A stretch of DNA of 41,661 bases from positions 1 to 41,661 of the IMG/VR virus record IMGVR_UViG_3300024346_000163; one strand, given 5' to 3'. The DNA is from a virus. Positions 2,544-36,271 of this stretch are shown here, in pieces (within the stretch, counting starts at the first letter, position 1; each line of letters starts with the position of its first letter). The translations under genes and the position numbers were made by a program. Under the pieces are notes generated by a model that did not search any database, had not been told where the DNA came from, and was given only the letters and a program-made list of their open reading frames with translations.

Positions 2544-4271
2544 ATGGCAGATACTTCATTTTTTGGCAGATTAACAAAACTCTTCCGTTCTCAAGCTGTT
2601 GTAACAGTTGATACAGATGGGAAGCGTAAAGTTTTTGATGCTGATGAAAGACAACAAACCAATTTATCATCCTTGCGTGATAGATACACAAAGATACAGA
2701 AATCTTTCTATGAACAAGCAGGTGGTGCACAATCAATGGCATACCAACAAGTTCGTAGAGAAGTTTTTCGTGATTATGATGCAATGGATACTGACCCTAT
2801 CCTTGCTTCCGCATTAGATATCTATGCAGATGAATCTACCTTAAAGAATGAGTTCGGAGATGTAATGACAATTACTTCGGATAACCAACGAGTTCAAGAT
2901 ATACTTAATAATTTATTTTATGATATTCTTAATGTGGAATTCAACTTGTGGCCATGGGTAAGAAATATGTGTAAGTATGGGGATTTCTTTTTAGGTTTAG
3001 AGATTGCAGAAGGTAAGGGTATTGTAAATGTAACCCCACACTCTGTTTATAATACTGAACGATTAGAAAGAACCGACCCATCAAATCCACACTCGGTAAA
3101 GTTTAAAATTACTGAAGACCCAAATGGGAAACAAGAATACGAAAACTTTGAGATTGCTCACTTTAGATTATTATCAGATACCAACTGGTTACCATATGGT
3201 AAATCAATGTTAGAGAATGGTAGAAGATTGTGGAAACAAATTTCTTTGATGGAAGATGCAATGATGATTCATAGAATCATGAGAGCTCCTGAAAAAAGAG
3301 TTTTCAAAATTGATATCGGTAACATCCCCCCAACAGAGGTAGATAACTACATGCAAAGAATTATCAATAAAATGAAGAAAGTTCCTTTCATTGATAAGAA
3401 TACTGGTGATTACAACTTAAAGTATAACATGCAGAACCTAACAGAAGATTTCTATCTTCCAGTTCGTGGTGGTGATAGTGGAACTTCTATTGATAACCTA
3501 CCTGGTTTACAGGCTGCAGATATTGAAGATATTCAATACTTAAAAAACAAAATGTTTGCTGCTCTTAAAATTCCAAGAGCATATTTAGGATACGAAGAAA
3601 ATGTAAATGGTAAAGCAACCCTTGCAGCAGAAGATGTTCGTTTCGCAAGAACAATTGAAAGAATACAAAGAACAGTAATTTCAGAATTATCTAAAATTGC
3701 AATCGTTCACTTATATGCACAAGGTATTCAAGATTCTGAAATGACTAATTTTGAATTACAATTGGTAAACCCATCTACAATCTACGAACAAGAAAAAGTA
3801 AATCTTTGGTCAGAAAAAGTTAGATTAGCACAAGATATTGCTGGTCTTAATATGTTATCAAAAGATTGGGTTTACGAAAACATCTTTAAATTATCAGGCG
3901 GAGACCAAGACGAAGAACGAGTTAAAATTCTTGATGATATTAAAGATAGATTCCGTTATCGTTCAATTGAAGACCAAGGTAATGACCCTGCTGTTGATAA
4001 TGAAGAACCGGATGATATTGAAGAATCATTGGAAAAATTAAAACAAGAAATTAAAGATAAGGGAGGTAGACCGAGAGAAGGAAATACCTATGGTAAAGAT
4101 AAACATCCATATGGTAGAGACCCTCTTGGTGACGATGAACGAACCTCAAAAAGAAGTAGAACATCGGAACAAAAAGCCCATACTTATATTTCAGGTATTG
4201 CGTCAAAACGAAAGTATTTACACGAAACTAAAAATATGTTAGACGAGGATAATATCCTCCAAGATACATAA
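2544..4271 (+). CDS. 20: portal vertex protein (gp20-like)
   Basis: This 575-residue protein is slightly longer than T4 gp20 (524). The body shows the T4-type portal pattern: an early segment with D-T-D-P-I-L-A-S-A-L-D, then A-L-K-I-P-R-A-Y-L-G near 349-358, followed by a charged helix in the wing/stem region. A dodecamer of this protein forms the DNA channel, nucleates the prohead and docks the terminase encoded just upstream. The last 75 or so residues are an unusual basic, Gly/Pro-containing extension (G-R-P-R-E-G-N-T-Y-G then H-P-Y-G-R-D-P-L-G), probably disordered. No strong Shine-Dalgarno is visible. Confidence 0.93.
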   Translation: MADTSFFGRLTKLFRSQAVVTVDTDGKRKVFDADERQQTNLSSLRDRYTKIQKSFYEQAGGAQSMAYQQVRREVFRDYDAMDTDPILASALDIYADESTLKNEFGDVMTITSDNQRVQDILNNLFYDILNVEFNLWPWVRNMCKYGDFFLGLEIAEGKGIVNVTPHSVYNTERLERTDPSNPHSVKFKITEDPNGKQEYENFEIAHFRLLSDTNWLPYGKSMLENGRRLWKQISLMEDAMMIHRIMRAPEKRVFKIDIGNIPPTEVDNYMQRIINKMKKVPFIDKNTGDYNLKYNMQNLTEDFYLPVRGGDSGTSIDNLPGLQAADIEDIQYLKNKMFAALKIPRAYLGYEENVNGKATLAAEDVRFARTIERIQRTVISELSKIAIVHLYAQGIQDSEMTNFELQLVNPSTIYEQEKVNLWSEKVRLAQDIAGLNMLSKDWVYENIFKLSGGDQDEERVKILDDIKDRFRYRSIEDQGNDPAVDNEEPDDIEESLEKLKQEIKDKGGRPREGNTYGKDKHPYGRDPLGDDERTSKRSRTSEQKAHTYISGIASKRKYLHETKNMLDEDNILQDT

Positions 4272-4345: not shown

Positions 4346-5218
4346 ATGAGAAAGATTAGACATTCAAAATTTAAAAATACGGGTTTTCTTTTTGAACTAT
4401 TAACCCGTCAAATCACCCTTGAGGTGTTGAATGGCGGAGAAGAAAAGTCAAAGAAAATCATCCGAGAATTTTTCGGTGGTAAGACTGAACTTGCCAAAGA
4501 ACTTCGTTTATTTAATTTATTAATAAACGAGAGATATAACTCTGAAAATAAAGCCGAAAAATTTATCGATGCTATATTAGAAGCTCACACGAAGTTAGAC
4601 CAAAAGAAACTTCAAAGAGAAAAGTATAACCTTGTTAAATCAATCAAGGAATCTTTAGATATAGATTCATTTATGTCTTCTCCTGTAACTAACTATAAAG
4701 TATTGGCTTCTATCCACAAATTATTTGAAGCAAAGAAAATGGATGTTCTTGATGTTAAGGATGTATTTGATTCTAAATTAACATTAGTAGAGCATATTTC
4801 AACTTCAACTCCTTCTATTAAACAAAAAGAAGATAAGTTAGTTGAAGAATTTAAAAAACAAGAAAAAGACCTTCGTTTATTGACCTACAAAATACTTGTT
4901 GAGACATTTAACAAAAAATATACAAACTTAAATGAATCACAGAAGAATCTTCTTCGTGAGTATATTAACAATGTAACAAACACCTCCAATTTTGGTGAGT
5001 ATTTTGAAAAAGAACTTATCAAAACAATTACCGAACTTCATACCATGTATAAAGGAATGAAGGACAAAATTACAAAAATCAAATTAAGAGAAACTATCAA
5101 TGTTTTGAAAAAACAAAAAGTTGGTAAAAAAATTACCGATGAGCAAGTTTCTGCTTTGATGATGTCTTATGAATTGATTAAGGAGATAAAAAATGTCAAT
5201 GAAACACTCAAATCTTAA
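4346..5218 (+). CDS. conserved T4-like head-region protein, alpha-helical, function unknown
   Basis: This is a 290-residue, Lys/Glu-rich, mostly helical protein. It opens with M-R-K-I-R-H-S-K-F-K-N-T-G and then F-E-L-L-T-R-Q-I-T. I remember this N-terminal signature from uncharacterised proteins beside gp20 in marine T4-like phages. The C-terminal third is a predicted coiled coil. No enzymatic motif and no clear V-N-E cleavage site was found, unlike its neighbours. Its place between portal and protease suggests a prohead-core or assembly role. Its 3' end overlaps the next gene by 26 bases. Confidence 0.85.
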   Translation: MRKIRHSKFKNTGFLFELLTRQITLEVLNGGEEKSKKIIREFFGGKTELAKELRLFNLLINERYNSENKAEKFIDAILEAHTKLDQKKLQREKYNLVKSIKESLDIDSFMSSPVTNYKVLASIHKLFEAKKMDVLDVKDVFDSKLTLVEHISTSTPSIKQKEDKLVEEFKKQEKDLRLLTYKILVETFNKKYTNLNESQKNLLREYINNVTNTSNFGEYFEKELIKTITELHTMYKGMKDKITKIKLRETINVLKKQKVGKKITDEQVSALMMSYELIKEIKNVNETLKS

Positions 5219-6527
5219 AAATTTTATAGAAGAGCTCATCAAAGAAGTTGAAACTGAATTGGATGAATCTAATGTAACCGGTAATATTGATGGTTATCAG
5301 ACCCCTAATGCATTTTCAGATGGTGGTAGTAAAGATAAGAATCGTAAAAAGAAAATTGCTACTCAATTTGGAATGAAGATTGTCGGTAAGATGGATGAAT
5401 CTTTTATGTCTGATTTAGATATTATTAAAAAAGGTTCAAAAGACATTACCGATTTCGTTAAAAGAGTATTATCAGATAAACAATTTAAAGATGTTAGAAC
5501 TGATAAAGAATTCCATAAATACCTAAAATCATTTTACAACGAATCAGTAAATGAAGGAATCATTCAAGACCGAGAAAAACAACTAGAAAAATTACCAAAG
5601 GGAACAAAAGTTTCAGGTGGTGGTTATGGTCCTTTTGTAAAGACACACTCCAATTCATTTAAAGATTCAAAGTCAGGAAAACTATATCACTCTGCTGCAT
5701 TAGCAAGTTTTATTGGCGGATTTAAAGATTTTAAAATTAATGAAGCATACAAAGGTAATCAATCTGATTTTAAGACTGATATTGTAAATGCTTTAGACAA
5801 TGTTGGTATTTCTCCAAAAGCTATCAAAAAGATTTCTAAAAAAGGAAAAGGGTTTGAAGTAAGAATGTCATCTTATATGTCAAACAAAGATGCATGGGAA
5901 AAACTTGGTGATGTTATGGGAGCTAAATTAGTTGATTTCCAAAAAGGGTCAATCAATGTTGGCTTATACGAATCAGTAAACGAAGGAATGGTTAGACCAA
6001 GAATGGGACATAAGTTCTATCAACTAACCAAAGATGCAAAAGTAGAAGTAGATACAGGAAGATATATTACAGGTAAAAAAGGTGCATACCTTATTGATTA
6101 CTTTGATAATATATTCTATTTAGATATGAAGGCTAAAATTGCATATAATATCTTAAAAATAAAAGACCAAAGTGATTTAGGATGGAAACGAAACTTTGTA
6201 GAAGTTGATAAGGCACCTGAATTAAAAGATTGGAAATCCTATATTAAAGAAGGACTTAACGAAACTAAATCAAAAAGACCTGTAAATCGTTGGTTGGAAT
6301 TAAAAAATGATGAATCGATGCATGCTAATAAAAAATTGGCAGTTGGATTGAAAGAATTAAAATATCAATTAGCAGAAGTTGAAAAGTTTTTCACTTGGTA
6401 TAATAAGATAAAAACAATGAATGAGTTAGATTCTTCTGACTATTGGAAAAGAACTAACAATCATATTTATAAGATAAAGGAGAGAATCCTAAATATAGCT
6501 AAAACCATACAGGAGATAGAAAAATAA
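5193..6527 (+). CDS. modular head protein, predicted polyprotein with four x-N-E cleavage sites
   Basis: This is a 444-residue protein. The N-terminus is a Lys/Glu-rich helix like a capsid-targeting leader, then N-V-T-G-N-I-D-G-Y at about 27-35. Predicted prohead-protease sites follow E121 (E-S-V-N-E/G), E184 (K-I-N-E/A), E264 (E-S-V-N-E/G) and E357 (G-L-N-E/T), giving pieces of 63, 80, 93 and 87 residues after a 121-residue first part. The last piece is a helical coiled coil. AAGGAG at 5180-5185 is seven bases before the first ATG, and a second ATG at 5199 would remove two residues. The start overlaps the previous gene and the stop overlaps the next start (TAATG), suggesting coupling. No domain is recognised with confidence. 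Confidence 0.88.
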   Translation: MSMKHSNLKNFIEELIKEVETELDESNVTGNIDGYQTPNAFSDGGSKDKNRKKKIATQFGMKIVGKMDESFMSDLDIIKKGSKDITDFVKRVLSDKQFKDVRTDKEFHKYLKSFYNESVNEGIIQDREKQLEKLPKGTKVSGGGYGPFVKTHSNSFKDSKSGKLYHSAALASFIGGFKDFKINEAYKGNQSDFKTDIVNALDNVGISPKAIKKISKKGKGFEVRMSSYMSNKDAWEKLGDVMGAKLVDFQKGSINVGLYESVNEGMVRPRMGHKFYQLTKDAKVEVDTGRYITGKKGAYLIDYFDNIFYLDMKAKIAYNILKIKDQSDLGWKRNFVEVDKAPELKDWKSYIKEGLNETKSKRPVNRWLELKNDESMHANKKLAVGLKELKYQLAEVEKFFTWYNKIKTMNELDSSDYWKRTNNHIYKIKERILNIAKTIQEIEK

Positions 6528-7702
6528 TGAAAATTACAAGAGAAAACTTTAAAAATATAGTTCGCGAAACTATGATTGAAGAAAATGAATACCAACAATT
6601 CTTCAAGAAAGCTTTAGAGAAAACTGGAAAATCTATTCCTGATATGTCTGATGAAGAAAAGAAATCATTCTTTAATAAAATTGATGCTGCTTGGAAAGGT
6701 AAAGGAGAGAAGAATGAAGAATTAGTTGGCAATCAAAAGAAATTAGATGTTGATGGTGATGGTGAAATTGACGCATCTGATTTAGCTGCATTAAGAGCTG
6801 GTAAAAAGAAAGATGAAAGATTTGGTAGAGGAGCAGGTGTTGGACCAACTTTTGGTTCTGCAGACCAACCTGAAGATGAAATCGAAGAAACTGCAGTAAT
6901 GATTCATAAAAGAACTCCAAGTGGAAATATTGTTTCTAAACTTAAAGAAGAAAACGAATCAATCAACGAGGCTGATGTAGTTGGTAAAACTATATTCTCT
7001 GATGGTAAAGGTAAATTGTTCTTTGGATATTATAAAACTGATGATGCAGTTGAATTTGTAGATTACAAAACTTGGAAGAAACTTTCTTTCAAAGATGTAT
7101 CTAAAGGCGATACCAACAAAGAACGAGTAATCAAAGCAATCCTTAAAGGACAAAAACAGTTCAATAAGAAAGTTGATTTCAATATGTGGGCTAAAAAAAA
7201 TAACCCATCTTTTGAACAAACTATGGATTGGTTTATTCAAAATGGTTGGATATCTAATATCAACAAAGGTGGTATTAAAGAATCAGTAAACGAAATACAA
7301 TATAAAGATGCAGTTGAAAAATTCAATGATGAGTTAATTAAACACCCAATGGTTAAAAAGGCAGCTCAACACTACAAAAAAACTCCTGCTGAAATTGTAA
7401 AAGTATTACAACAAAGATTATCTACAAAAGGAAATCGTGGTGGTGATACAAAAGAAGTATCTATTGATTTCAAAGATACCGATAGTGGTATTAATGTTAA
7501 ACACAAAAAATCCTTTAATGAATCAGTAAACGAAGCATCAATTGATATTAAAGTTGGTGATATGGTTAAAGTTGATAACCCACATTGGGAAGGTGCTTTA
7601 GGTAAAAAAGGACCATTTAGAAGAAAAGTAAAAGCAATTTATGATGATAATGTATTCTTTACCGATGGTTCTAATTCATCAATGAAATATATTAAAAAAT
7701 AA
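6527..7702 (+). CDS. modular head protein with EF-hand-like loop, predicted polyprotein
   Basis: This is a 391-residue protein starting in TAATG overlap with the previous gene. Residues 1-148 contain a leader-like N-terminus, a segment F-F-K-K-A-L-E-K-T-G-K, and a calcium-loop pattern D74-x-D76-x-D78-G-E-I-D82 near 74-85, as in EF-hand or dockerin loops. Predicted cleavage sites follow E148 (S-I-N-E/A), E256 (E-S-V-N-E/I) and E336 (E-S-V-N-E/A). The resulting pieces are about 148, 108, 80 and 55 residues. The last looks like a small beta-barrel (V-G-D-M-V-K-V-D then G-P-F-R-R-K-V). It is probably a prohead-core or internal protein precursor. Specific functions are unknown. Confidence 0.87.
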   Translation: MKITRENFKNIVRETMIEENEYQQFFKKALEKTGKSIPDMSDEEKKSFFNKIDAAWKGKGEKNEELVGNQKKLDVDGDGEIDASDLAALRAGKKKDERFGRGAGVGPTFGSADQPEDEIEETAVMIHKRTPSGNIVSKLKEENESINEADVVGKTIFSDGKGKLFFGYYKTDDAVEFVDYKTWKKLSFKDVSKGDTNKERVIKAILKGQKQFNKKVDFNMWAKKNNPSFEQTMDWFIQNGWISNINKGGIKESVNEIQYKDAVEKFNDELIKHPMVKKAAQHYKKTPAEIVKVLQQRLSTKGNRGGDTKEVSIDFKDTDSGINVKHKKSFNESVNEASIDIKVGDMVKVDNPHWEGALGKKGPFRRKVKAIYDDNVFFTDGSNSSMKYIKK

Positions 7703-7703
7703 A

Positions 7704-7880
7704 ATGACTAAACAAAGATTATTAGAAATAATTGACGAAGAAATCCAACATGCAAAATGGGGGATTATCAACGAAGAAATTACGAGTGAGGATGAAAAGA
7801 AAATCCGTGAAATCATTCGTAGAGAAGTTTCTGCAATTTTCTTTGATTTATTTAAAAAACGAAAAACTTGGGGAGCATAA
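7704..7880 (+). CDS. small head-region protein (58 residues)
   Basis: An ATG one base after the previous stop opens a 58-codon frame ending at TAA 7878-7880, which overlaps the protease start (TAATG). The product is charged and helical (L-L-E-I-I-D-E-E, then I-R-E-I-I-R-R-E-V). It carries G-I-I-N-E at 20-24, another hydrophobic-N-E site. Size and position match the small prohead-core proteins gp67/gp68 that precede gp21 in T4, but I cannot show homology. Confidence 0.7.
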   Translation: MTKQRLLEIIDEEIQHAKWGIINEEITSEDEKKIREIIRREVSAIFFDLFKKRKTWGA

Positions 7881-8470
7881 TGGGACTATTAATTGAAACC
7901 AGATTATTTGAAGGCAAGATAAACGAAGACGAAAGTGGAAGAACTGTCGTTAAGGGTATCTTACAAAGGGCTGGTGCAGAAAACCAAAACGGTAGAGTTT
8001 ATCCAAGACCAATCTTGGAAAGAGAAGCTAAAAAATACGAACAACTTATCAAAGAAAGAAGAGCATTAGGTGAATTAGACCACCCTGATTCTTCTGTAAT
8101 CAACCTAAAGAACGTATCTCATAACGTAAGAGAGATTCATTGGGATGGTGATGATTTAGTTGGTACAGTAGAGATACTACCTACACCAAGTGGAAACATC
8201 CTTAAAGAACTTTTAAGAGCAGGTATCCTATTAGGTATATCATCACGTGGTATGGGTTCAGTAACTCCAATGAGAGGTGCCGATAGTGGTAAAGTTCAAG
8301 TTGGTGAAGACTTTGAATTGATTGGTTGGGATTTTGTATCTAACCCATCAACTCATGGTGCATTTATGACCCCATTACAAGAATCAGTAAACAATAAACA
8401 AGCGAATGTTTGCAGTGATTTTTGTAAAGCACAAGATTTGATGAGAGAAATTATAACAGAATTAACATAA
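7880..8470 (+). CDS. 21: prohead maturation protease (gp21-like)
   Basis: This 196-residue protein aligns by eye with T4 gp21, a serine protease. Conserved blocks are N-G-R-V-Y-P-R at 37-43, A-L-G-E-L-D-H-P at 62-69 with candidate catalytic H68, and L-G-I-S-S-R-G-M-G-S at 118-127 with candidate nucleophile S121 or S122. In T4 this enzyme sits in the prohead core, cuts scaffold and capsid proteins after hydrophobic-x-Glu, then removes itself. K-I-N-E at 13-16 could be an autocleavage site, and E-S-V-N-N at 168-172 looks like a decayed E-S-V-N-E. The ATG at 7880 (TAATG) is preferred to an in-frame TTG at 7868 because it keeps the gp21-like N-terminus and tight gene packing. Confidence 0.95.
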   Translation: MGLLIETRLFEGKINEDESGRTVVKGILQRAGAENQNGRVYPRPILEREAKKYEQLIKERRALGELDHPDSSVINLKNVSHNVREIHWDGDDLVGTVEILPTPSGNILKELLRAGILLGISSRGMGSVTPMRGADSGKVQVGEDFELIGWDFVSNPSTHGAFMTPLQESVNNKQANVCSDFCKAQDLMREIITELT

Positions 8471-10377: not shown

Positions 10378-10389
10378 TAGGAGTATATA

Positions 10390-11529
10390 ATGAAACTAAT
10401 TCAACTAATGAACGAAGGCGAAGAGAAAAGACCACTTTCTAATGAAGTTAAAAAACACTTCTTGGAAATTGTTTCTACATATAACAAATATCAAGAGATG
10501 ATGGATAGAAAATCCGATTTATCTCAAGTTGCTGAAACTCTTGGCGGAATCACCGAGGCTGCAAGAACTCTTGCTATCCACGAGGGTGATGATTGGTTTG
10601 ATAAACAAACTATCAAACGAAACATGAGTGAGTTAGATAAGTTAGGTAAAGAATTTGATAAGTGTGCAGTTGAAGCAAATGCATTAGACCAAAGATTACA
10701 TGGTTTATACGAAGATATGGGACATATCTTATCAAGATACTACAAGATAGGTGAAATAACCGAAGAACAGATGAAAGAACGTTTAGGAATGAACGAATCT
10801 CATTCTAATTGTGGTTGTGGATGTGGTGGAAAGACCGTAGGTGGTTGTTCTACATCAGTAAACGAATCAGTTAACGAAGAAGAAATGATTAAGTTAGGTG
10901 AGGAAGTTGAAAAAATAATGGAAGAAAATGTTCCAACTGACCCAGGTAAATGGTCTTACTACAAAGCACAAGCTAAAAAGAAATTTGATGTATATCCATC
11001 TGCTTATGCAAATGGTTGGGCAGCAAAAAAATATAAAGAAGCAGGTGGTGGTTGGAAAAAAGGTAAAAGTGAATCAGTAAACGAAGGAGTTTGGACAGCC
11101 GAACAAGAAAGAGCAGTTGCTTTATTAGATTCTCAATTTAGAAAATACCTTTCTGCTAAAGGTATAGAACCTACTTCAATTGAAGCAAGTAGAGCATGGA
11201 AATCTTATGGATTCCAAGATAAAATGAGAAAGATTTTTCCAAAATCTAAATACGAATCAGTAAACGAAGCGAAATTCGGTTATAAAGATTCAACTGCTTC
11301 TTATATCAAGAAACACAACAACGAATATAAGATTGCTGAAAAAATGAATAAAGGGAATGAACAAAAGTTTTACGATGATTTACAAGCAATGGAAGATAAA
11401 CTTGGTCATTCAAAAACAATGTTATTTATTTCAAATGCTTTAAGAGGATATGGAGTAGATATGTTCAAAGACCCTAAAATTAAAAACCCAGCTGATGCAC
11501 AAGAGGCTCTATTTTTATTGAGTAAGTAG
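10390..11529 (+). CDS. modular head protein, predicted polyprotein with YPSAYANGWA domain
   Basis: This is a 379-residue protein with AGGAG six bases before the ATG. Residues 1-9 (M-K-L-I-Q-L-M-N-E) followed by Gly are leader-like. Residues 10-135 are a helical domain. A Cys cluster follows (C141, C143, C145, C153; N-C-G-C-G-C-G-G). Predicted cleavage sites follow E159 and E163 (a doubled V-N-E), E232 and E293. The 164-232 piece contains V-Y-P-S-A-Y-A-N-G-W-A at about 201-211, a small domain widespread in phages and giant viruses (I recall DUF5872, from memory only). Pieces 233-293 and 294-379 are unrecognised helical modules. This gene shows the module-plus-linker design most clearly. Confidence 0.88.
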   Translation: MKLIQLMNEGEEKRPLSNEVKKHFLEIVSTYNKYQEMMDRKSDLSQVAETLGGITEAARTLAIHEGDDWFDKQTIKRNMSELDKLGKEFDKCAVEANALDQRLHGLYEDMGHILSRYYKIGEITEEQMKERLGMNESHSNCGCGCGGKTVGGCSTSVNESVNEEEMIKLGEEVEKIMEENVPTDPGKWSYYKAQAKKKFDVYPSAYANGWAAKKYKEAGGGWKKGKSESVNEGVWTAEQERAVALLDSQFRKYLSAKGIEPTSIEASRAWKSYGFQDKMRKIFPKSKYESVNEAKFGYKDSTASYIKKHNNEYKIAEKMNKGNEQKFYDDLQAMEDKLGHSKTMLFISNALRGYGVDMFKDPKIKNPADAQEALFLLSK

Positions 11530-12180: not shown

Positions 12181-12182
12181 TA

Positions 12183-12192
12183 TATATTTATA
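12183..12192 (+). promoter_or_regulatory. candidate late promoter element TATATTTATA
   Basis: This is a perfect copy in the 42-base gap before the bS21-like gene, ending 30 bases before its ATG. No Shine-Dalgarno lies between them. Confidence 0.5.
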
Positions 12193-12222
12193 TAAACAAA
12201 GTTACAATCTAAATTATTTATA

Positions 12223-12546
12223 ATGGCAAAACATACAACTAAAGTAAGTGTAGAAGTTAGAAAAGGAGACATTAACAAGGCACTTAAAATTTTTAAAAGA
12301 AGGGTAATGGATTCAGGACACCTTCAATGGTTAAAAGAGAATCAAGAATATACGAAACCTAAAACGATTCGTAGAAAACAAAAACTTGATGCTATAAGAA
12401 GAAACCAAAAGGAAGTTTTGTTTGATAAATGGGAAAGTGGGGATAATTCCATCACTTTATTTAATAAAAAGAAACAAAAAATCCAAAATACTGAAAAATC
12501 TTCAGAAAAAACCATAGAAAATTATGGTTTAAAACTTGAAAGATAA
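12223..12546 (+). CDS. rpsU: bS21-like ribosomal protein
   Basis: This is a 107-residue protein. Residues 8-65 follow the bS21 pattern: V-E-V-R-K-G-D then A-L-K-I-F-K-R-R, a Gly-containing turn, E-Y-T-K-P and R-R-K-Q-K-L-D-A-I-R-R (E. coli bS21 has A-L-R-R-F-K-R, Y-E-K-P and R-K-R). Normal bS21 is about 65-70 residues, so the last 40 residues are a Lys/Ser-rich extension. bS21 binds the small subunit near the anti-Shine-Dalgarno, and some phages of aquatic bacteria carry a copy. It has its own upstream element and a terminator directly behind it. The start region (T-T-T-A-T-A-ATG) has no Shine-Dalgarno, unlike several neighbouring genes. Confidence 0.8.
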   Translation: MAKHTTKVSVEVRKGDINKALKIFKRRVMDSGHLQWLKENQEYTKPKTIRRKQKLDAIRRNQKEVLFDKWESGDNSITLFNKKKQKIQNTEKSSEKTIENYGLKLER

Positions 12547-12560
12547 TACTTATTATAAAT

Positions 12561-12584
12561 AACCCACCTCAATGTGGGTTTTTA
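12561..12584 (+). terminator. rho-independent terminator after the bS21-like gene
   Basis: AACCCAC (12561-12567) pairs with GTGGGTT (12574-12580) around a six-base loop, followed by TTTAT. The rest of the gap to 12705 shows no ORF, tRNA or copy of the recurring promoter element. Confidence 0.75.
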
Positions 12585-12705: not shown

Positions 12706-13797
12706 ATGAGTAATTCAAAATTGTTAAAAGAAGCAATTGCTGATGCTAAAGCGGTTCGTGAAACTGCTATCGCTAATGCTAAAATCGCTCTTGAAGAAGC
12801 TTTTACTCCACGTTTACAATCTATCTTATCACAAAAACTTCAAGCTGAAATGGAAGGCGAAGAAGAAGAAGCTGATTTAGAAGAAAATGAAGTAAACGTA
12901 ACTGAAGCAGAAGATGATTCAGAGGAAGCAGTTGAAGAAACTGTAACTGAAGAAGAAGAATCTGAAGAAGGTGAAGAAGAAGTATCTGAAGGCGAGTACA
13001 ATGCAGAAGGTGAAGAAGAAATCACTGCTGAATCTGAAGAAGAAATGTCTGAAGAAGAAGCAATGGAAGAAGCTGAAGAAGAAGCAATGGAAGATGCTGA
13101 AGAAGAAGACGAGGACGAATTGGACCTCGAGGCAATCATTAGAGAACTTGAAGAAGAACTTGATGATGAAGAAGAAGAAGAAGTTGAAGACATCGCTAAT
13201 GATGTAGTTGACGGACACGAAGAAGAAATGCATGATGAAGAATCATCTGAAGAAGAACCATCTGAAGAAGATGCTGAAGAAGTATCTGAAGAAGAAGGTG
13301 AAGAAGAAATGCATGACGAAGAAATCGACCTTGAAGAAATCCTTCGCGAGATGGGTTACGGTGAGGACGAAGAAGAAGTTAACGAAGAAGAATCAGAAGA
13401 AGAAGATTCTGAATTAGAAGAAGTAAAAGCTGAACTTGGTGAAGCAATCTCTACTATTAAAGAATTAAAGAAAACTATCAACGAAGTTAACTTATTGAAT
13501 GCAAAATTACTTTACACTAACAAATTATTCCGTTCTTACGATTTAACCAACGAACAAAAACACAAAGTTGTTGAAACATTAGACAGAACTGGTAATGTTA
13601 GAGAAGTAAAATTAGTATTCTCAACCTTAGCTGAATCACTTAAAATGGGTGGTACATCTAAAAAAGTAAAACAAACCGCTAAATTAACTGAATCATTTGC
13701 ATCTAAACCAGTTGCTTCTACTGCTCCTAAAAAGGAAATTATCGCAGAAAGCAATTCTTTAGCTGAAAGATTCAAACAATTGGCAAACATCAATTAA
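12706..13797 (+). CDS. 22: prohead core scaffold protein (gp22-like), very acidic
   Basis: This is a 363-residue protein directly before the capsid gene, as in T4. Residues 1-48 are a helical leader. Residues 50-240 are dominated by Glu/Asp runs, with repeats such as M-H-D-E-E. Residues 245-363 form a helical domain with L-T-N-E-Q-K-H-K-V and F-S-T-L-A-E-S-L-K, resembling the T4 gp22 C-terminus. Candidate protease sites include V-T-E/A near 65-68, L-T-E/S and I-A-E/S, fitting the fate of gp22, which is degraded to small peptides in the capsid. The acidic tract is far larger than in T4. The poly-Ser and poly-Phe antisense frames here are shadows of GAA codons. Confidence 0.85.
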   Translation: MSNSKLLKEAIADAKAVRETAIANAKIALEEAFTPRLQSILSQKLQAEMEGEEEEADLEENEVNVTEAEDDSEEAVEETVTEEEESEEGEEEVSEGEYNAEGEEEITAESEEEMSEEEAMEEAEEEAMEDAEEEDEDELDLEAIIRELEEELDDEEEEEVEDIANDVVDGHEEEMHDEESSEEEPSEEDAEEVSEEEGEEEMHDEEIDLEEILREMGYGEDEEEVNEEESEEEDSELEEVKAELGEAISTIKELKKTINEVNLLNAKLLYTNKLFRSYDLTNEQKHKVVETLDRTGNVREVKLVFSTLAESLKMGGTSKKVKQTAKLTESFASKPVASTAPKKEIIAESNSLAERFKQLANIN

Positions 13798-13822
13798 CTA
13801 AAACTCATAGGAGAGATATAAA

Positions 13823-15436
13823 ATGGCAAATTTTGATTTATCTAAACTTATGGAAGGCAAAAACCCACAACAAGTAATGTTGGCTGAAACTCGCCAATTA
13901 CAATCTAAATGGGAAAAAACTGGTCTTCTTGAAGGTTTAAAAAGTAGAGAGCAATCTCAAATCGCAGTTCTTTTAGAGAACCAAGCAAAACAATTATTAG
14001 ATGAAGCTACCGCAACAGGTACTTCAGCAGGTTCAGAAGAATGGTCAGGCGTTGCTTTACCATTAGTAAGACGTATCTTTGGTGAAATCGCATCAAAAGA
14101 ATTCGTTTCTGTACAACCAATGAACTTACCATCAGGTCTTATTTTCTATTTAGACTTTAAATACGGTACTGCACAACCAGGTAACCCATCATTCAACGGA
14201 ACTTCACTTTTTGGTGGTAATGGTTCTTCTGCATTTGATGGTGACTTCGGTAGAACTAAAGCAGCTGTAAAAGGTCTTTATGGTGAAGGTAGATTTGCTT
14301 ACACTATTAACGATTCAACTTCTACTATCGCAGTAGGAAACGTAACTATCGCTTCTGCTTCTTGGGATGAAGTAGGTTTTGATTCTTCATTATCAGCTTC
14401 TATCGCTGCAGATGAAATTGCAAAAATCTCTTTCGCTCATTCAGGTCTAACTCGTCCTGATTTAGATGCAGTTCGTTCATTCTACTTCTCATCTTCAGCA
14501 TTCGCAGGTGCAGATTTATTCTACCCAGCTCACACTAAAGTCGATGGTGCTAATGTAGTATTCTTCGCTAAATGTGATGGTGGACCAAAAGCTGCAGTAG
14601 AAGTTAAATATTCTGAACAACCAACCGCTAACACTCGTGGTGATTTCGAAGATGCTGCTCCATCTGAACCAGCAACTGATTTAGGAATTCCTGAAGTTGA
14701 TTTAGAATTACGTTCAGAGGCTATCGTTGCTAAAACTCGTAAGTTGAAAGCAGTATGGACTCCTGAATTGGCTCAAGACTTAAATGCTTACCACTCAATC
14801 GATGCAGAAGCTGAATTAACTGCAATGTTATCAGAGTACATCTCTTTAGAGATTGACCTTGAAATCCTTGATATGTTGAAAGCTAACGCATTGACTACTG
14901 AATACTGGTCAGTAACTTTAGGTGAAGAGTACAACTCTGCAACAGGTGCTTGGGTTGCTAGTGGAGCTGCTGCAGCTTACACTAAAAACTCTTGGTTCCA
15001 AACTTTAGGAACTAAATTGAACAAAGTATCTAACAAAATTCACCAATTAACACTTCGTGGTGGAGCTAACTTCGTTGTTGCTTCTCCAGACGTATGTACT
15101 ATCTTGGAATCTATCCCAGGATTTACAGTTTCTGCAGATAAAGATGCAATGTCTTTCGCTGCTGGTGTAACTACTGTTGGTGCTATCGCTAACCGCTACA
15201 CTGTTTACAAAAACCCATACATGACTTCTAACGAAATCTTGTTAGGTTTCAAAGGTTCTAACTTCCTTGAAACAGGTGCTGTTTATGCTCCATACGTTCC
15301 ACTTATTATGACTCCATTGGTGTACGACCCAACTAACTTCACTCCACGTAGAGGAGTTATGACTCGTTACGCTAAGAAAATGGTTCGTCCTGAATTCTAC
15401 GGAAAAATCTATGTTAAAGATTTGAGTAACATCTAA
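13823..15436 (+). CDS. 23: major capsid protein (gp23-like)
   Basis: This 537-residue protein (T4 gp23: 521) has an HK97-type fold by family. Residues 1-61 look like the propeptide, ending L-L-D-E at 58-61 followed by A-T-A-T-G. T4 gp23 is cut at the equivalent place after L-T-E. Conserved blocks include L-V-R-R-I-F near 81-86, V-S-V-Q-P-M-N-L-P-S-G near 95-105, and a C-terminal segment with Y-A-K-K-M-V-R-P-E-F-Y. AGGAG lies nine bases upstream. Codons shift to those of a highly expressed gene (many GCT, ATC, TAC, AAC). A strong terminator follows. It forms the hexamers of the head shell. Confidence 0.96.
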   Translation: MANFDLSKLMEGKNPQQVMLAETRQLQSKWEKTGLLEGLKSREQSQIAVLLENQAKQLLDEATATGTSAGSEEWSGVALPLVRRIFGEIASKEFVSVQPMNLPSGLIFYLDFKYGTAQPGNPSFNGTSLFGGNGSSAFDGDFGRTKAAVKGLYGEGRFAYTINDSTSTIAVGNVTIASASWDEVGFDSSLSASIAADEIAKISFAHSGLTRPDLDAVRSFYFSSSAFAGADLFYPAHTKVDGANVVFFAKCDGGPKAAVEVKYSEQPTANTRGDFEDAAPSEPATDLGIPEVDLELRSEAIVAKTRKLKAVWTPELAQDLNAYHSIDAEAELTAMLSEYISLEIDLEILDMLKANALTTEYWSVTLGEEYNSATGAWVASGAAAAYTKNSWFQTLGTKLNKVSNKIHQLTLRGGANFVVASPDVCTILESIPGFTVSADKDAMSFAAGVTTVGAIANRYTVYKNPYMTSNEILLGFKGSNFLETGAVYAPYVPLIMTPLVYDPTNFTPRRGVMTRYAKKMVRPEFYGKIYVKDLSNI

Positions 15437-15551: not shown

Positions 15552-15584
15552 TTAGTATAATTGTATAATAAGGAGAGAACAAAT

Positions 15585-16736
15585 ATGTCTCAAGCAAGAA
15601 TTTGGACAGGTTCAGCATCATTTACATCAGGCTCTTCCACTCCATGGGGAACTTATGATTCTGATTCATTATTTCAAGATGAAGCACCAAAATTTGCATC
15701 TTGGGCTGCTAAACGATTAGGTTATCCAATCATTGATATTGAATTACAAGGAGAAAACTTCTTCGCAGTATTTGAAGAATCGGTTTCTGAATATTCAGCA
15801 CAAGTTAACCAATTTAACATACGAAACAATCTCGGTTCATTAGAAGGACAACCAACTGGTTCTAATTACCAAGGTAGTTCAGTATTAGGTTCCGAAATTA
15901 ACAATGTAATCACTATTGCAGAAGGATATGGTACACTTGCTAATGTTGGTGGTAGAACTGATATTAAAAAAGGACATATTACTTTAGTTGCAGGACAACA
16001 AGAATATGATTTACAAACTTTATGGTCGGATGTATCTGAAAGTGGTGAAAGAATCGATGTAACCAAGGTCTATTACGAGGCAACTCCAGCAATCAATAGA
16101 TTCTTTGACCCTTATTCAGTAAGTGGACAGGGAACTCTTAATTTGATTGATGAATTTGGGTTTGGTTCGTTCTCACCTGCTGCACAATTTATCTTAATGC
16201 CGTTATATGAAGATATGTTGAGAATTCAAGCAATTGAGTTCAATGACCAATTTAGAAAATCTGCTCATACCTTCAATATTGTAAATAATAAATTACAAAT
16301 ATTCCCTTTACCAACCGGTGTATCGGAATTGTGGTTTGAATATCAAGTTAAAAAAGAATTTAGAGAAAATTCAACTATTATTACTCCAAATGTAGTATCA
16401 GATTACTCAAATGTTGGATATAATTTTGCAACTTATTCACGAATCAACGATGTTGGTAAACAATGGATTAGAAAATACGCACTTGCTCTTGCAAAAGAAA
16501 TGTTAGGTGCGATTAGAGAGAAATATAACACAGTTCCGATTCCCGGTACTGAAGTTTCTTTAGATGGCGCGGCATTGAGAGCAGAAGCACAAACAGAAAA
16601 GGATAACTTAATTGAACAATTAAGAGAAAACCTTAATGAAGTGAGTAAGAAAACAAGAATGGAGAATGAATCCAATATGGTTGAACAACAACAAAAGATT
16701 ATTGGTAAGGTTCCATTAGCAATTTATATAGGATAA
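15585..16736 (+). CDS. 13: neck protein (gp13-like)
   Basis: The start is taken at the ATG at 15585, nine bases after AAGGAG. An in-frame TTG at 15561 would place the ribosome-binding site inside the gene. The product has 383 residues (T4 gp13: 309). After a Ser/Gly-rich start, A-A-K-R-L-G-Y-P-I-I-D-I-E-L near 41-54, followed by an acidic helix, matches the N-terminal signature of T4-type gp13. The C-terminal part is helical with many Glu/Lys. gp13 and gp14 form the neck that seals the filled head and joins the tail. The gp14-like gene follows after four bases. Confidence 0.8.
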   Translation: MSQARIWTGSASFTSGSSTPWGTYDSDSLFQDEAPKFASWAAKRLGYPIIDIELQGENFFAVFEESVSEYSAQVNQFNIRNNLGSLEGQPTGSNYQGSSVLGSEINNVITIAEGYGTLANVGGRTDIKKGHITLVAGQQEYDLQTLWSDVSESGERIDVTKVYYEATPAINRFFDPYSVSGQGTLNLIDEFGFGSFSPAAQFILMPLYEDMLRIQAIEFNDQFRKSAHTFNIVNNKLQIFPLPTGVSELWFEYQVKKEFRENSTIITPNVVSDYSNVGYNFATYSRINDVGKQWIRKYALALAKEMLGAIREKYNTVPIPGTEVSLDGAALRAEAQTEKDNLIEQLRENLNEVSKKTRMENESNMVEQQQKIIGKVPLAIYIG

Positions 16737-23007: not shown

Positions 23008-23028
23008 TTATAAGGAGAATACAAAAAT

Positions 23029-23508
23029 ATGCCTTTATTCAGTTCACAATTAGAATTAAACTCAGCTGCTTCTGCATCGGGTACTCCGTTAGCAGATGTT
23101 GCTGCAATTAAAGGTGCTTTTAAAGTTTACCCAACTTATGAAGGACTGACAAATGTTCCTGTGAGTTTATGCTCAAACGGACAAATTGTTTGGGTAGAAG
23201 ATGCTCAATCACTATACAAAGCAACTGTTACTTTAGCAGATTATATAAGTACATTTGAAGATACGGTAACTTGGGCAGAGTTTAACTTTCCAGGTGGAAC
23301 TGGCGGAGTTGGTGATATTACTGCAGTAGTTGCTGGAAGTGGTTTAACCGGTGGTTCTTTTAGTGGAACTGCAACTTTGAATGTTGGTGCTGGAAATGGT
23401 ATCACTGTATCTGCTGATGCTGTATCAATTAACACCGGTTCTGCACATTTTGAGAATGGTGTTGAAAAAATTGTTGTTGTTACAACAATTGATGGTGGTT
23501 CCATATAA
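23029..23508 (+). CDS. short fibre-associated protein ending I-D-G-G-S-I
   Basis: This is a 159-residue protein with AAGGAG 11 bases before the ATG. The N-terminal 90 residues are a compact domain (L-E-L-N-S-A-A-S-A-S-G-T-P-L-A). The C-terminal part is Gly/Thr-rich fibre sequence with G-S-G-L-T-G-G and G-N-G-I-T-V-S-A. It ends T-I-D-G-G-S-I, the same C-terminal signature found in the proteins encoded at 23640 and 32620. It is probably a tail-fibre adaptor or tip. Function is not established. Confidence 0.75.
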   Translation: MPLFSSQLELNSAASASGTPLADVAAIKGAFKVYPTYEGLTNVPVSLCSNGQIVWVEDAQSLYKATVTLADYISTFEDTVTWAEFNFPGGTGGVGDITAVVAGSGLTGGSFSGTATLNVGAGNGITVSADAVSINTGSAHFENGVEKIVVVTTIDGGSI

Positions 23509-27234: not shown

Positions 27235-30200
27235 ATGGCAGCAATATTACAATTAAGAAGAGGAACTTCAAATGTAACACTTACTGAAGGCGAATTATAT
27301 TTACACCAAGGTAAAGGTTCAATTCAATTTGGAAGTGGTTCTTCACAACATACTCTTGTTAAAATCGGTTCAAATAGTGGTTCTATTTCATTTAGTGGGG
27401 ATGTCACTGCATCTAATGCCTTATTTACTGGTAATACTACCGTTAATGGTAACATTTATTTGGGTGGAGATATCTTTTTGGGTGATGGTACTCAAGCAAC
27501 TGATAATATTAATGTAAATGCAACATTTAGTGGGTCTATCGTACCAAATACTGCAGATGTATTTGATTTAGGTGCATCTGATAAGAAATGGAATACAATA
27601 TATGCATTAACGGGTTCTTTCTCAAATGGAATCATATCAGGTTCTTCTCAATTAACTGATGATTTAGATTTAAGATATTTGGAAATTGGTGGAGATAATG
27701 TTTTTTCTTCATCAGTTCAAACCGATTTAACACAAACCACTAACTATATAAGTGGAATAAAATCACGATTAAATTCAGAAACCGTCATTTCTGGTTCTTC
27801 ACAAGTACAAATTAATTCAGTAAATGGATTTACCTCTTATAGCTCATCTGTTGATTCAAGGTTAGATTATATTGAGGGTACTTTTAGTTCTTCAGTAGAT
27901 TCTCGTTTAGATATTTTAGAATCATATAGTTCTTCAATAGAAACACGAGTTTTAGATTTAGAATCAACCGGGTCTGACCACGAAACACGAGTTTTAGATT
28001 TAGAATCAACCGGTTCTGACCACGAAACACGAGTTTTAGATTTAGAATCAACCGGTTCTGACCATGAAAATCGTATTGATTTATTAGAATCATTCTCGTC
28101 CTCATTAGATAATACATTTGTAACTGAAATTGAATTAAATGATGCAACTGCATCATTATCGGCGTCTTTAACAATTACGGATATTGATTTTGAGAACAGA
28201 ATTAATACTTTAGAAACCACATTTAGTTCTTCAGTAGATTTACGTTTAGATAATTCTGAATTAACCGGCTCAGACCACGAATCTCGTATAAATAATTTAT
28301 CGAGTGTTACTGGTTCTTATGCTACAACCGGTTCAAACTTATTTATTGGCAATCAAACCATAACAGGTTCTATTGAATCAAGTGGTTCGGTATCTTTTCA
28401 AGGAGTTCCTTGGCCAAGTATAGGTTCGGAATCTCATATTATAAAAACTCAACCATATTCTTTAAATTTAGAATCTGGTAGTAGAACTTATGAATATGCA
28501 GGTCTTGCACTACAACATTTTGAAGCATCTCCATCATATTATCACAATTCAATATTACTTTATTCGTATGATAATCATGATACACCCAACTATGGTACTG
28601 AATTAAATGTAGGTCCATTAAGAAATCACATGAGATTATATCCATCAACATCTTTTGATGGGCTTGATGTTTCTCATATGGCAAATATATCTATTGAAGA
28701 TACCCAAAATGGGACAAGTAATGCATTAATATATGCCGATAATATTCAAATTGGGGCATATAACTCTGAAAATATAGCAATTGGTAATCTTACAACCGAG
28801 ATTTCTATTGCTGCATTAAATACGAATATAAATTCCCCAATAACATCATCAAATACTATACAAGCAACGTATTTCCATGGTGATGGTTCTAATTTAACAA
28901 ATATTCAAGCAGGAAATGTAGTATTTGGTGGAAGTGGTATTGTTTCTGGTTCATCTCAAATTGATGTAAATGATACTCAAAACTTCCAAACATTCTCATC
29001 TTCAGTAGATTCTCGTTTAGACTATTTAGAAGGAGATTTCTCTACTTCAGTAGATGACAGACTTGATAATGTTGAAACATATACATCTTCATTAAAACAA
29101 GCAATTGATGTTGATGGTTCAAATTTAATTGTTCTTGGCAACTTAACAGTTCAGGGAACTCAAACTTCTCTTAATACCACACAAGTTTTAATTGAAGACT
29201 TACTTTTAACACTCGCAAGTGGTTCTGTTGATGGAAATGAAGCAAATGGTGCAGGTATTGAAATTGCAGGAGCAAATCAATCTATAACTTGGGACAACCC
29301 AAACACTCGTTGGAGTATTACAAGTGAAGTATCTGCATCAGGATTCATTGGTGATGGTAGTGGATTAGAAAATGTAACTGCTGCCGATGTAGAATTTTCA
29401 AATATTTTAAACAAACCAACTTTAGTTTCGGGCTCCGACCAAGTAACTCAATCATTAGATTCAAGATACTTGCAAATTGAAGGAGATAGTGTAGTTTCAG
29501 GGTCTTCTCAAATTGATTTAACTCAAACTTCCAACTATGTAAGTGGTATTAAAGACAGATTAAATGCAGAAAATGTTCATAGTTCTTCTTATTTAGGAAC
29601 TGCGACTACTTCAAATTTAACAGAAGGTATTAATTTATACTATACCGATTTAAGAGTAAAAACTAAATTAGATTTAGAAGGTGTAATTTCAGGTTCATCT
29701 CAAGTAAATGCTGATTCAATCACTAACTTTGACTCAAATGTATTAGAATACAATAATTTATTGGGTGTAATTTCAGGTTCATCTCAAGTTAATGCTGACA
29801 CTATTGCTAACTTTGATTCAAATGTATTAGATAAAATAAATGCAGAAGGTGTATTGAGTGGGTCTGACCAAGTAACTCAATCATTAGATAATAGATATTT
29901 ACAAATTGAAGGAGATGGAGTTGTTTCGGGTTCATCTCAAATTGATGTAAATGATACTCAAAACTTCCAAACATTCTCATCTTCAGTAGATTCTCGATTA
30001 GATTACGTTGAGGGTGAATTTTCAACTTCTTTAGATTCAAGATTAGATTTACTTGAAAACTTTAGTTCATCACAATATAACAATGATTCTCAATCATTTG
30101 ATTCTCGTTTAGATTTTATTGAATCATATTCTGCGTCATTGGATTCAAGATTAGATTCAGTAGAAGGAGACCAACATACTCACTCAAATAAAGCAAATCT

Positions 30201-33292: not shown

Positions 33293-36271
33293 ATGATATT
33301 ACACAGCCCAACGATTTCAGGTTCATTAACATTCGCAGATGGTGGAACATTTACATTACCAGATAATGGTGTATATAGTGGTTCATTTAGTGGTTCAATC
33401 CAAGTACATCAGGCAATTTCAAGCATTTTACCAAGTGTAACCAACACATTTGACTTGGGTTCGCCAGAAAAACAATGGAGAGATATTTATCTTTCTTCTG
33501 CTTCTCTTTACATTGATGGAACTCCTGTATTACAGTCAAATAATTCTGAACTTATCATTAGTACAGATGTCAACCAATCTCTTAAATTGGTTGAAACTGG
33601 TGCTGATACAATAACTTTACAAACAGAGAATGGTGATATTACATTTGCTACAACAGGAAATGGTAATATCGAATTAGATGCACCAATCCAAATTGCCGCA
33701 GGTAATAAAATTCTTTCATCTGATGGAAACAATATCCATTTTGGAAATGGATTAAGTGTAACTGGTAGTATTTCTTTAAGTGGTAATGTTGATGGTGTTG
33801 ATGTTGCTACATTAAAATCTTCATTCGATACTCTTAATTCTAAATCATTAGTTTCAGGTTCATCACAAGTTGATGTAACTGCTACAACTGGTTATTCTGC
33901 TATATCTTCTCACATATCTTCTACATCAAACCCACACTCGGTAACAAAAGCTCAAGTTGGTTTAGGTAGTGTAGATAATACTTCAGATTTAGATAAACCA
34001 GTATCAACTGCAACTCAAACTGCATTAAATGCAAAATTGAATATCAATGGAGCAGGTGTAGTTTCGGGTTCATCTCAAGTTGATGTAACTGCAACTGCAA
34101 ATTACTCAACCATATCTTCTCACATTAGTGATACATCTAATCCACACTCTGTAACAAAATCTCAAGTTGGATTAGGAAATGTAGATAATACTTCAGATTT
34201 AGATAAGCCAATTTCTACTGCAACTCAAGATGCATTAGATTTAAAAGCTACTGTATCTGCATTAAACACTCAAGCAGGTAGAATTGATGCAATCCTTGCT
34301 TCATCTACTGCAGACGCAGATACATTCGCTGAAATTGTATCCTTAATTAATTCAGTAGATACTACAAACGATTCTGCATTTGCTGGATTTGTAACTTCAT
34401 CTAATGCTGCACAAGCAGTACAAGATGATAGATTATCTGCTTTGGAATCTACAAGTGGTTCATTACTTTCTTCTTTAGATTCTCATATTTCCGACACAGA
34501 TAATCCACACTCTGTAACAAAAGCACAAGTTGGATTAGGAAATGTAGATAATACTTCAGATGCTAACAAACCAGTATCAACTGCACAACAAACTGCATTG
34601 AATTTAAAAGCAGATTCTACAACTTTATCTGCTCACGTTGGTGATACTAATAACCCACACTCGGTAACAAAAGCTCAAGTTGGATTAGGAAACGTAGATA
34701 ATACTTCAGATTTAGATAAACCAGTATCAACTGCCCAACAAACTGCATTAAATGCAAAATTGAATATCAATGGAGCAGGTGTAGTTTCGGGTTCATCTCA
34801 AGTTTCTTATCCAAGTTTATCTAATATTCCAAGTGGAATAGTTTCTGGCTCATCTCAAGTTTTAGGTGGAAGTGGAATTGTATCATCTTCTGCACAAATT
34901 GATTCATTAGGATTCTTAAAAGTAGGTGGAGATGGTGTAATTTCAGGTTCATCTCAAGTTTCATTTAGTTCAATCGTAGATAAACCAACTTTAATTAGTG
35001 GTTCATCACAAGTAGACCATGATTCAACTACAAACTTTGTTGCAAACAAACACATTGACCACTCAACTGTATCAGTTACTGCAGGTGCAGGTTTAACTGG
35101 TGGTGGTGATATTACAATCTCAAGAACTTTAAATGTTGTTTCTGCAAATGATGCTATTCTTGTAAATGCAAACGATATTCAGTTTGTTAATACATCTGTA
35201 ACATTAAGAGATGGTATTAAAACTAAATTAAATCTTGACGGAGTACTTTCAGGTTCAACTCAAGTACAAGCTGGTTCAATTAGTGGTGATATTGCACTTG
35301 GTGCTCAAACAAGTGGTAACTATGTAGCTTCGTTAGTTGCTGGAACTAATATTACACTTTCAAACAATAGTGGTGAAGGTGCAACTCCAACAATCGGTTT
35401 AACAAATAATTCAATCACTATTTCAGGCACATCAGTATCTTTAGGTGGTTCAATTACAGATGCGGTATTATTTGGTGGAACTAATTTAATTTCAGGTTCA
35501 ACTCAAATCCTTTCAGAAGTGTCTATTGATGAAGATGCAATGACATCGAATTCTGCTACTAAATTACCAACTCAACAATCGGTAAAAGCGTATGTAGATT
35601 CTAAAGTTGCAGGATTAGTAGATTCCGCTCCTGGTGCTCTTGATACTCTTAATGAACTTGCACTTGCACTTGGTGATGATGCAAACTTCTCAACAACCGT
35701 AACAACTTCAATCTCTACTAAAGCAAATAGTTCAGTACAAATTATTGCAGGTGCAGGTTTAACAGGTGGTGGTGATTTAACCGCAAGTAGAACTCTTAAT
35801 ATCGGTGCTGGTACGGGTGTAACTGTTGCTGCTGATAGTATATCTATTGGACAGCCAGTTGGAACTGGTGATACCGTACAATTTGCTAAACTTGGTGTAG
35901 GTGGAGCTGCAGATGCAACTTATGAATTGAAAGTAACTGGAGATATTGGTGCAACAGGTGATATCGTTGCTTATGTATCTTCGGATGAGAGATTGAAAAA
36001 TAATATAGAATTGATTTCTAACCCAATTGAAAAAGTACAATCACTTCGTGGTGTAACTTGGGAATGGAATGAATTTGCTTCAGATGCTGCAAAACAATCA
36101 CCAAATCTTGGTGTTATTGCACAAGAAGTAGAAAAAGTTCTTCCTCAATTGGTTCATGATAGAGAAAGTGGTTTTAAAGGTGTAGATTATTCTAAACTTA
36201 CCGGTCTTTTAATTGAAGCAATAAAAGAACAACAAAAACAAATTGACGAATTAAAGTCAAAATTAGGTTAA
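33293..36271 (+). CDS. tail fibre protein with H-S-V-T-K repeats and C-terminal S74 chaperone domain
   Basis: This 992-residue protein lacks the shared attachment N-terminus and opens with beta sequence (S-P-T-I-S-G-S-L-T-F), so it may be a distal fibre segment. N-T-F-D-L-G-S-P-E-K-Q-W lies near 50. Four copies of N-P-H-S-V-T-K-(A/S)-Q-V-G-L-G-(N/S)-V-D-N start near residues 212, 282, 403 and 453. This is a known phage tail-fibre repeat (Phage_fiber_2-like, from memory). The Gly-rich V-T-A-G-A-G-L-T-G-G-G-D block occurs near 600 and again, as I-A-G-A-G-L-T-G-G-G-D, near 820. Residues 896-992 are an S74 chaperone domain (S-S-D-E-R-L-K-N-N-I; L-G-V-I-A-Q-E-V-E), with the Ser-Asp pair at 897-898. 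Confidence 0.9.
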   Translation: MILHSPTISGSLTFADGGTFTLPDNGVYSGSFSGSIQVHQAISSILPSVTNTFDLGSPEKQWRDIYLSSASLYIDGTPVLQSNNSELIISTDVNQSLKLVETGADTITLQTENGDITFATTGNGNIELDAPIQIAAGNKILSSDGNNIHFGNGLSVTGSISLSGNVDGVDVATLKSSFDTLNSKSLVSGSSQVDVTATTGYSAISSHISSTSNPHSVTKAQVGLGSVDNTSDLDKPVSTATQTALNAKLNINGAGVVSGSSQVDVTATANYSTISSHISDTSNPHSVTKSQVGLGNVDNTSDLDKPISTATQDALDLKATVSALNTQAGRIDAILASSTADADTFAEIVSLINSVDTTNDSAFAGFVTSSNAAQAVQDDRLSALESTSGSLLSSLDSHISDTDNPHSVTKAQVGLGNVDNTSDANKPVSTAQQTALNLKADSTTLSAHVGDTNNPHSVTKAQVGLGNVDNTSDLDKPVSTAQQTALNAKLNINGAGVVSGSSQVSYPSLSNIPSGIVSGSSQVLGGSGIVSSSAQIDSLGFLKVGGDGVISGSSQVSFSSIVDKPTLISGSSQVDHDSTTNFVANKHIDHSTVSVTAGAGLTGGGDITISRTLNVVSANDAILVNANDIQFVNTSVTLRDGIKTKLNLDGVLSGSTQVQAGSISGDIALGAQTSGNYVASLVAGTNITLSNNSGEGATPTIGLTNNSITISGTSVSLGGSITDAVLFGGTNLISGSTQILSEVSIDEDAMTSNSATKLPTQQSVKAYVDSKVAGLVDSAPGALDTLNELALALGDDANFSTTVTTSISTKANSSVQIIAGAGLTGGGDLTASRTLNIGAGTGVTVAADSISIGQPVGTGDTVQFAKLGVGGAADATYELKVTGDIGATGDIVAYVSSDERLKNNIELISNPIEKVQSLRGVTWEWNEFASDAAKQSPNLGVIAQEVEKVLPQLVHDRESGFKGVDYSKLTGLLIEAIKEQQKQIDELKSKLG

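Follow-up and report, generated by a model that had tools for sequence, protein, structure and literature searches.

A tailed phage bS21 with arginine at the Tyr54 position, and Shine-Dalgarno motifs nearly confined to the late genes of its relatives: a possible switch of initiation mode

Shine-Dalgarno (SD) motifs are nearly confined to late genes in a group of phages whose bS21 homologue carries arginine at the position of a tyrosine that, in Flavobacterium johnsoniae, helps to hide the anti-Shine-Dalgarno (ASD). The window, a 41.7 kb virus record from IMG/VR that was analysed over its whole length, belongs to this group and, judged by its sequence, encodes a bS21 homologue at 12223-12546. 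We consider it somewhat probable that phage bS21, made late in infection, is built into host ribosomes, where it exposes the ASD and gives late mRNAs with an SD an advantage. Ribosome entry, ASD exposure and late-mRNA preference are all inferred, with support from the phenotypes of Y54A and truncation mutants of bS21 and from the incorporation of a pelagiphage bS21.

In F. johnsoniae, the 3′ tail of 16S rRNA with the ASD is held in a pocket of bS21, bS18 and bS6, where Tyr54 of bS21 stacks on A1534; the Y54A exchange or a truncation of the bS21 C-terminus raises the translation of strong-SD mRNAs (PMC9976891). Aligned with the F. johnsoniae sequence, which was confirmed against PDB 7jil, the window protein has Arg59 at the place of Tyr54, and arginine is also found in most relatives. 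The aromatic residue at position 54 that marks ASD-sequestering bS21 of the Bacteroidia is therefore absent from the window protein, although an arginine could stack on an adenine too. Phage-encoded bS18 or bS6 as additional parts of the pocket were found in none of 13 records.

The bS21-like ORF put forward in the initial annotation is real, and its coordinates are exact. The HMM search proposed there as a check gives matches above the curated cut-offs in both Pfam and NCBIfam: residues 9-61 match PF01165 (Ribosomal_S21; E 4e-11, 42.8 bits, cut-off 27) and residues 8-63 match the equivalog TIGR00030 (S21p; E 9e-11, 41.4 bits, cut-off 28.95). The protein also matches PHROG 21469 'ribosomal protein S21' and PDB bS21 chains (phmmer; best E 4e-5). 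No second bS21 was found in the window, and a tblastn search with the window bS21 against phage records returned no match, though Mel-JY01 and HTVC008M carry bS21. Family membership predicts association with the 30S subunit, and 30S/ribosome association has been demonstrated for a different phage bS21 (PMC6375957). The gene and its surroundings, all on the plus strand, are as follows.

517-2097, +: terminase large subunit, TerL (profile matches)
2544-4271, +: T4-type portal protein (profile matches)
7880-8470, +: prohead core serine protease, Peptidase_S77 (profile match)
12181-12194, +: AT-rich late-promoter-like element TATATATTTATATA before bS21 (sequence; TA[TC]TTATA counts in relatives)
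12195-12222, +: bS21 leader without an SD; GTTACA at 12201-12206 is conserved in relatives (sequence, comparison)
12223-12546, +: phage bS21 gene, 107 aa, core residues 9-63 (profile matches and alignment)
12418-12543, +: basic extension at the C-terminus, about 42 residues (66-107), with EKTIENYGLKLER as its end (alignment with relatives)
12561-12580, +: intrinsic terminator AACCCACCTCAATGTGGGTT-TTTAT after bS21 (sequence)
12706-13797, +: very acidic ORF where the prohead scaffold is expected (similarity label in relatives)
13823-15436, +: major capsid protein (MCP) Gp23 (profile match)

T4-type portal, S77 prohead protease, Gp23 and TerL together make up the head module of a T4-like myovirus. 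With these genes and the acidic scaffold-like ORF, which has no Pfam match, all around bS21, the proposed location among head genes holds, as does the proposal of a promoter-like element (TATATATTTATATA at 12181-12194) and a terminator (the hairpin at 12561-12580) of its own. The motif ES[VI]N[EN], which may be the cleavage site of the S77 protease, occurs nine times in four proteins of the prohead region (5193-6527, 6527-7702, 7880-8470 and 10390-11529) and not once in the 7771 residues of the other window proteins. Elsewhere in the window, a small protein upstream of TerL (114-512), possibly lysis- or spanin-like, begins with a signal peptide that looks flavobacterial, MTKLIPLMLLLLVSFKSFSQTD, and has a hydrophobic stretch at its C-terminus; two long tail-fibre-like proteins (27235-32607 and 33293-36271) end in Peptidase_S74 intramolecular chaperone domains; and 38376-39659 holds a Hint/intein-like domain that stays below threshold (PT-HINT E 4e-4, Intein_splicing E 6e-4) along with a weak fn3 match.

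SD motifs are abundant in the window. They lie at -18 to -5 of 18 of its 30 genes, where upstream control windows give a rate of 0.117 (p 3e-10; the start codon taken from the longest ATG ORF). Examples on the plus strand, all read from the sequence, include the following.

2128-2133, +: AAGGAG of ORF 2144-2506
5180-5185, +: AAGGAG of ORF 5193-6527, within the preceding ORF
6511-6515, +: AGGAG of ORF 6527-7702, within the preceding ORF
10379-10383, +: AGGAG of ORF 10390-11529
13809-13813, +: AGGAG of the capsid gene, 9 nt ahead of its start at 13823
15570-15575, +: AAGGAG of ORF 15585-16736
23012-23017, +: AAGGAG of ORF 23029-23508

The possibility that the motif is part of a late promoter was rejected: it is locked to the start codon, about 11-15 nt ahead of it, is found in 29 of 67 late genes that lie no more than 12 nt from the upstream gene, and is also present inside preceding ORFs (5180-5185 and 6511-6515).

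Since the window itself has no early genes, its late-only pattern, like its host, is read from relatives. Genes were classed with the annotated Flavobacterium phage immuto as the reference for similarity, the early class comprising replication, nucleotide metabolism, chaperonins and glycosyltransferases, and the late class the virion. Pooled over ten contigs with an Arg54 bS21 and the window, SDs precede 115 of 207 late genes and five of 102 early ones; the p value of 1e-20 overstates independence because the contigs are related fragments. Single contigs give p values of 5e-5 (G010), 6e-4 (G015) and 2e-3 (G006). Independent support for these labels comes from the TA[TC]TTATA element, which in the same related contigs stands ahead of 66/207 late genes and none of the 102 early genes. 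In long contigs, SD use is blocky: in G010 the head block reaches 0.77 and other blocks are near zero, and in G008 SDs are found on none of 21 genes at 30-60 kb compared with 0.55-1.0 at 60-120 kb. Early genes of Arg54 phages pair more weakly with the ASD than their upstream control, as in immuto (two contigs contribute one labelled early gene each). In the open-access literature, no prior description of SDs restricted to the late genes of Bacteroidota phages was found.

T4, HTVC008M and G025, which served as SD-using controls, bear SDs in both classes (15/25 early, 31/41 late), and in immuto, whose record (MW353177) contains no bS21 anywhere, SDs are nearly absent (1/32 early, 3/35 late). Among phages whose bS21 has Tyr54, G020 has SDs on none of three early and none of eight late genes and G019, with few labelled genes, on 3% of all genes; G029, with weak late SDs (35%), is a misfit to a strict rule. 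So is Mel-JY01, in which SDs occur on early as well as late genes despite Bacteroidota-type promoters. A first group of 22 loci 'without bS21' was left out; several of them have a bS21 that starts with TTG or GTG or lies elsewhere in the record.

Which feature of the protein goes with SD use? The mean SD pairing energy is -0.3 kcal/mol in aromatic-54 phages versus -3.5 kcal/mol in the others (p 4e-4, at the level of MCP clusters, with hosts mixed and the tree ignored). Residue 54 as the sole determinant was rejected, as it shows no independent effect after tree correction (p 0.64; three aromatic tips). The second candidate is the tail. The core of the window protein stops near residue 65, and the extension, put at 40 residues in the initial annotation, comes to about 42. 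Where a tail is present among 34 related phage bS21s, it consists of a conserved KIxxGDTxxRxxTKK followed by a Lys-rich stretch, and in the nearest relatives, including L001, L003, L004 and L005, it ends in EKTIENYGL or EKTIENYGLKL. The length of bS21 correlates with SD pairing energy across 41 Arg54 MCP clusters (rho -0.77), as it does in independent contrasts computed over a 40-member tree of the capsid protein (r -0.52, p 0.003). Where Arg54 occurs with a short tail, SDs are weak; exceptions to the trend are L055 and L056, with a bS21 of 71 aa and clear SDs nonetheless. Tail length is thus, in these comparisons, a better predictor of SD strength than residue 54, because the length correlation survives tree correction and the residue 54 effect does not.

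A protein that opens the ribosome to SDs should be made from an mRNA that can do without one. Among 62 distinct relatives in the window's clade, not one bS21 start has a well-spaced SD, and the clade accordingly lacks the mark of autoregulation in ASD-sequestering bS21, a strong SD at the proper distance from the start of the bS21 gene. SD motifs with the usual spacing do precede bS21 in G025, HTVC008M, Mel-JY01 and several more SD-rich phages. In 32 of 39 loci with a bS21 of at least 86 residues, a single base parts AGGAG from the start codon, a distance too short for initiation to proceed normally. It is possible that SD-blind ribosomes can start at such a site and ASD-free ones are hindered, which would amount to negative feedback. 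The leader GTTACA...AATAAAGGAGA-ATG, in which only one base stands between SD core and start codon, is conserved in L004, L005, L013, L044, L156-L170 and others; the window and its closest relatives have retained a GTTACA-like sequence and lost AGGAG from the bS21 leader.

Host assignment draws on the promoter TTG-N20-TAnnTTTG, the established vegetative promoter of Bacteroidota. Counted in intergenic regions of the Arg54 phages with spacers of 18-20 nt (nearly all exactly 20 nt), it occurs in sense:antisense ratios of 35:3 (G006), 17:0 (G015), 6:0 (G010), 5:1 (G011), 5:0 (G022), 4:0 (G017), 3:0 (G016) and 2:0 (G014). Intergenic sense copies are missing from T4, HTVC008M and G025, and P-HM2 has one. 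The promoters in their contigs suggest that the relatives' hosts are of Bacteroidota type and SD-blind. Immuto has none of them either, and because it is a proven Flavobacterium phage, their absence is uninformative. For the window phage we infer a Bacteroidota host by kinship, because its MCP is 79-81% identical to those of loci L044, L013 and L174 (contigs G014, G008 and G010); the signal peptide of ORF 114-512 is a weak further clue. A cyanophage host was rejected, with no psbA/psbD (PF00124) in 19 records. The nearest cellular bS21 was set aside as a host clue: the genome scan gave mostly Bacteroidales, for which the search pattern itself may select. Mel-JY01 (PP395634, loci L341-L350), for which the recorded host is Microcystis, has 22 intergenic Bacteroidota-type promoters and no antisense copy, and for this reason it may in truth infect a Bacteroidota companion.

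The course of events that we envisage would begin with Bacteroidia ribosomes that keep the ASD in the bS21/bS18/bS6 pocket and ignore SDs. Such unmodified host ribosomes would translate the early phage genes and then the SD-less phage bS21 mRNA; the product would occupy the place of bS21 on 30S subunits and, because it lacks Tyr54 and bears a basic C-terminal extension, would leave the 16S 3′ tail free. Re-tooled ribosomes would prefer mRNAs with SDs, that is, those of late (virion) genes almost exclusively, and in many relatives the mis-spaced SD at the bS21 start might feed back on bS21. Taken as a whole, a timed switch of initiation mode, by which SD-blind Bacteroidota ribosomes become SD-reading late in infection, late mRNAs outcompete host and early mRNAs, and the switch gene does without an SD and may restrain itself via a mis-spaced one, falls in our judgement just on the probable side. 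Against it count the lack of an independent tree effect of residue 54, the short-tailed Arg54 phages, G029 and Mel-JY01, as well as the chance that arginine stacks on an adenine and the T that commonly stands ahead of AAGGAG in late SDs. The initial annotation had suggested that a tailed phage bS21 could replace host bS21 and change the choice of mRNAs. The comparative data fit this suggestion well, with apparently Bacteroidota-type hosts, late-confined SDs, SD strength that rises with tail length and a bS21 gene without a well-spaced SD; ribosome entry and ASD exposure are its conjectural part.

The phage protein might instead hide the ASD as the host's does, which is how Chen et al. 2022 read it, with late SDs exploiting ribosomes that have lost host bS21 in the course of infection or have been freed by another phage factor. 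F. johnsoniae ribosomes without bS21 do read strong SDs (PMC9976891), SD use is not tracked by residue 54 alone on the tree, and the phages of Chen et al. retain the aromatic residue (PMC9723584). That residue is missing in the window's lineage, however, SD strength follows the tail length of the phage's own bS21, and immuto, without bS21, has nearly no SDs, and so we regard ASD hiding as unlikely.

Rather less probable still is that SD use is normal in the hosts, that the lack of SDs on early genes has an unrelated cause, and that phage bS21 is neutral or a general booster. The host is known by inference, most bS21s outside the Bacteroidia also lack Tyr54, and Mel-JY01 combines Bacteroidota-type promoters with SDs in both classes. 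The base ahead of AAGGAG in late SDs of the window's clade also bears on this question, being T in 59 of 83 sites versus 33-35% T upstream: this T suits a 16S end of the form CCUCCUUA and gives no extended pairing along the expected Bacteroidota 16S end, CCUCCUUUCU. But early genes pair with the ASD below the upstream control, as in immuto, the same contigs hold Bacteroidota promoters, and phages of SD-using hosts bear SDs on early genes too. Finally, action off the ribosome, for example as a virion-packaged protein or in nucleic-acid binding during head assembly, would suit the basic tail, the position among prohead genes and the mention of bS21 packaging as a possibility by Chen et al. (PMC9723584), but is very improbable given the well-preserved bS21 core, the entry of pelagiphage bS21 into E. 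coli ribosomes (PMC6375957) and an SD pattern that it leaves unexplained.

The general idea of a phage bS21 that joins ribosomes and picks out phage mRNAs has been published before (PMC6375957, PMC9723584, PMC9976891). New here is the pattern of SD use: arginine at the place of Tyr54, late-only SDs, the link to tail length and the SD-less bS21 start. For a large lineage, late-only SDs offer a concrete and testable answer to the question of why many aquatic phages carry bS21. If the proposed switch is true, phage bS21 alters how ribosomes select their mRNAs, in the reverse sense to the published view of a Bacteroidetes-phage bS21 that hides the ASD, and provides natural specialised ribosomes under temporal control; it might also enable SD-dependent expression in Bacteroidota.

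Among known systems, F. johnsoniae RpsU (PDB 7jil), which sits by the ASD, belongs to the same fold family by sequence. It has 64 aa and holds the 16S 3′ tail with Tyr54, where the window protein has arginine and a tail, and its gene bears a very strong autoregulatory SD (PMC9976891), whereas the window gene has no usable SD. The bS21 of Pelagibacter phage HTVC008M, likewise phage-encoded, was incorporated into E. coli ribosomes and impaired translation there (Mizuno et al. 2019, PMC6375957); unlike the window protein it has 67 aa and no tail, SDs in this phage are both early and late, and an SD-like motif stands at its bS21 start. Immuto (MW353177) shares the head gene order, with TerL 55% and MCP 51% identical, but lacks bS21 and is nearly SD-free in any gene class. 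In Microcystis phage Mel-JY01 (PP395634; MCP 54% identical), rpsU lies between the prohead protease and a capsid gene, but its bS21 has 75 aa, Lys at position 54 and an SD at its gene, with SDs on early and late genes. Closest in setting are the phages of Chen et al. 2022, who proposed an ASD-related role of bS21 in Bacteroidetes phages and late ribosome takeover (PMC9723584): as in the window, bS21 sits among TerL, portal, protease and capsid genes, and the hosts are Bacteroidetes (for the window, as the promoters of its relatives suggest). Their 61 phage bS21s all have an aromatic residue at position 54 (PMC9723584) and are encoded on the opposite strand; the window lineage differs from them in that arginine replaces this residue, with bS21 on the same strand, a long tail and SDs on late genes.
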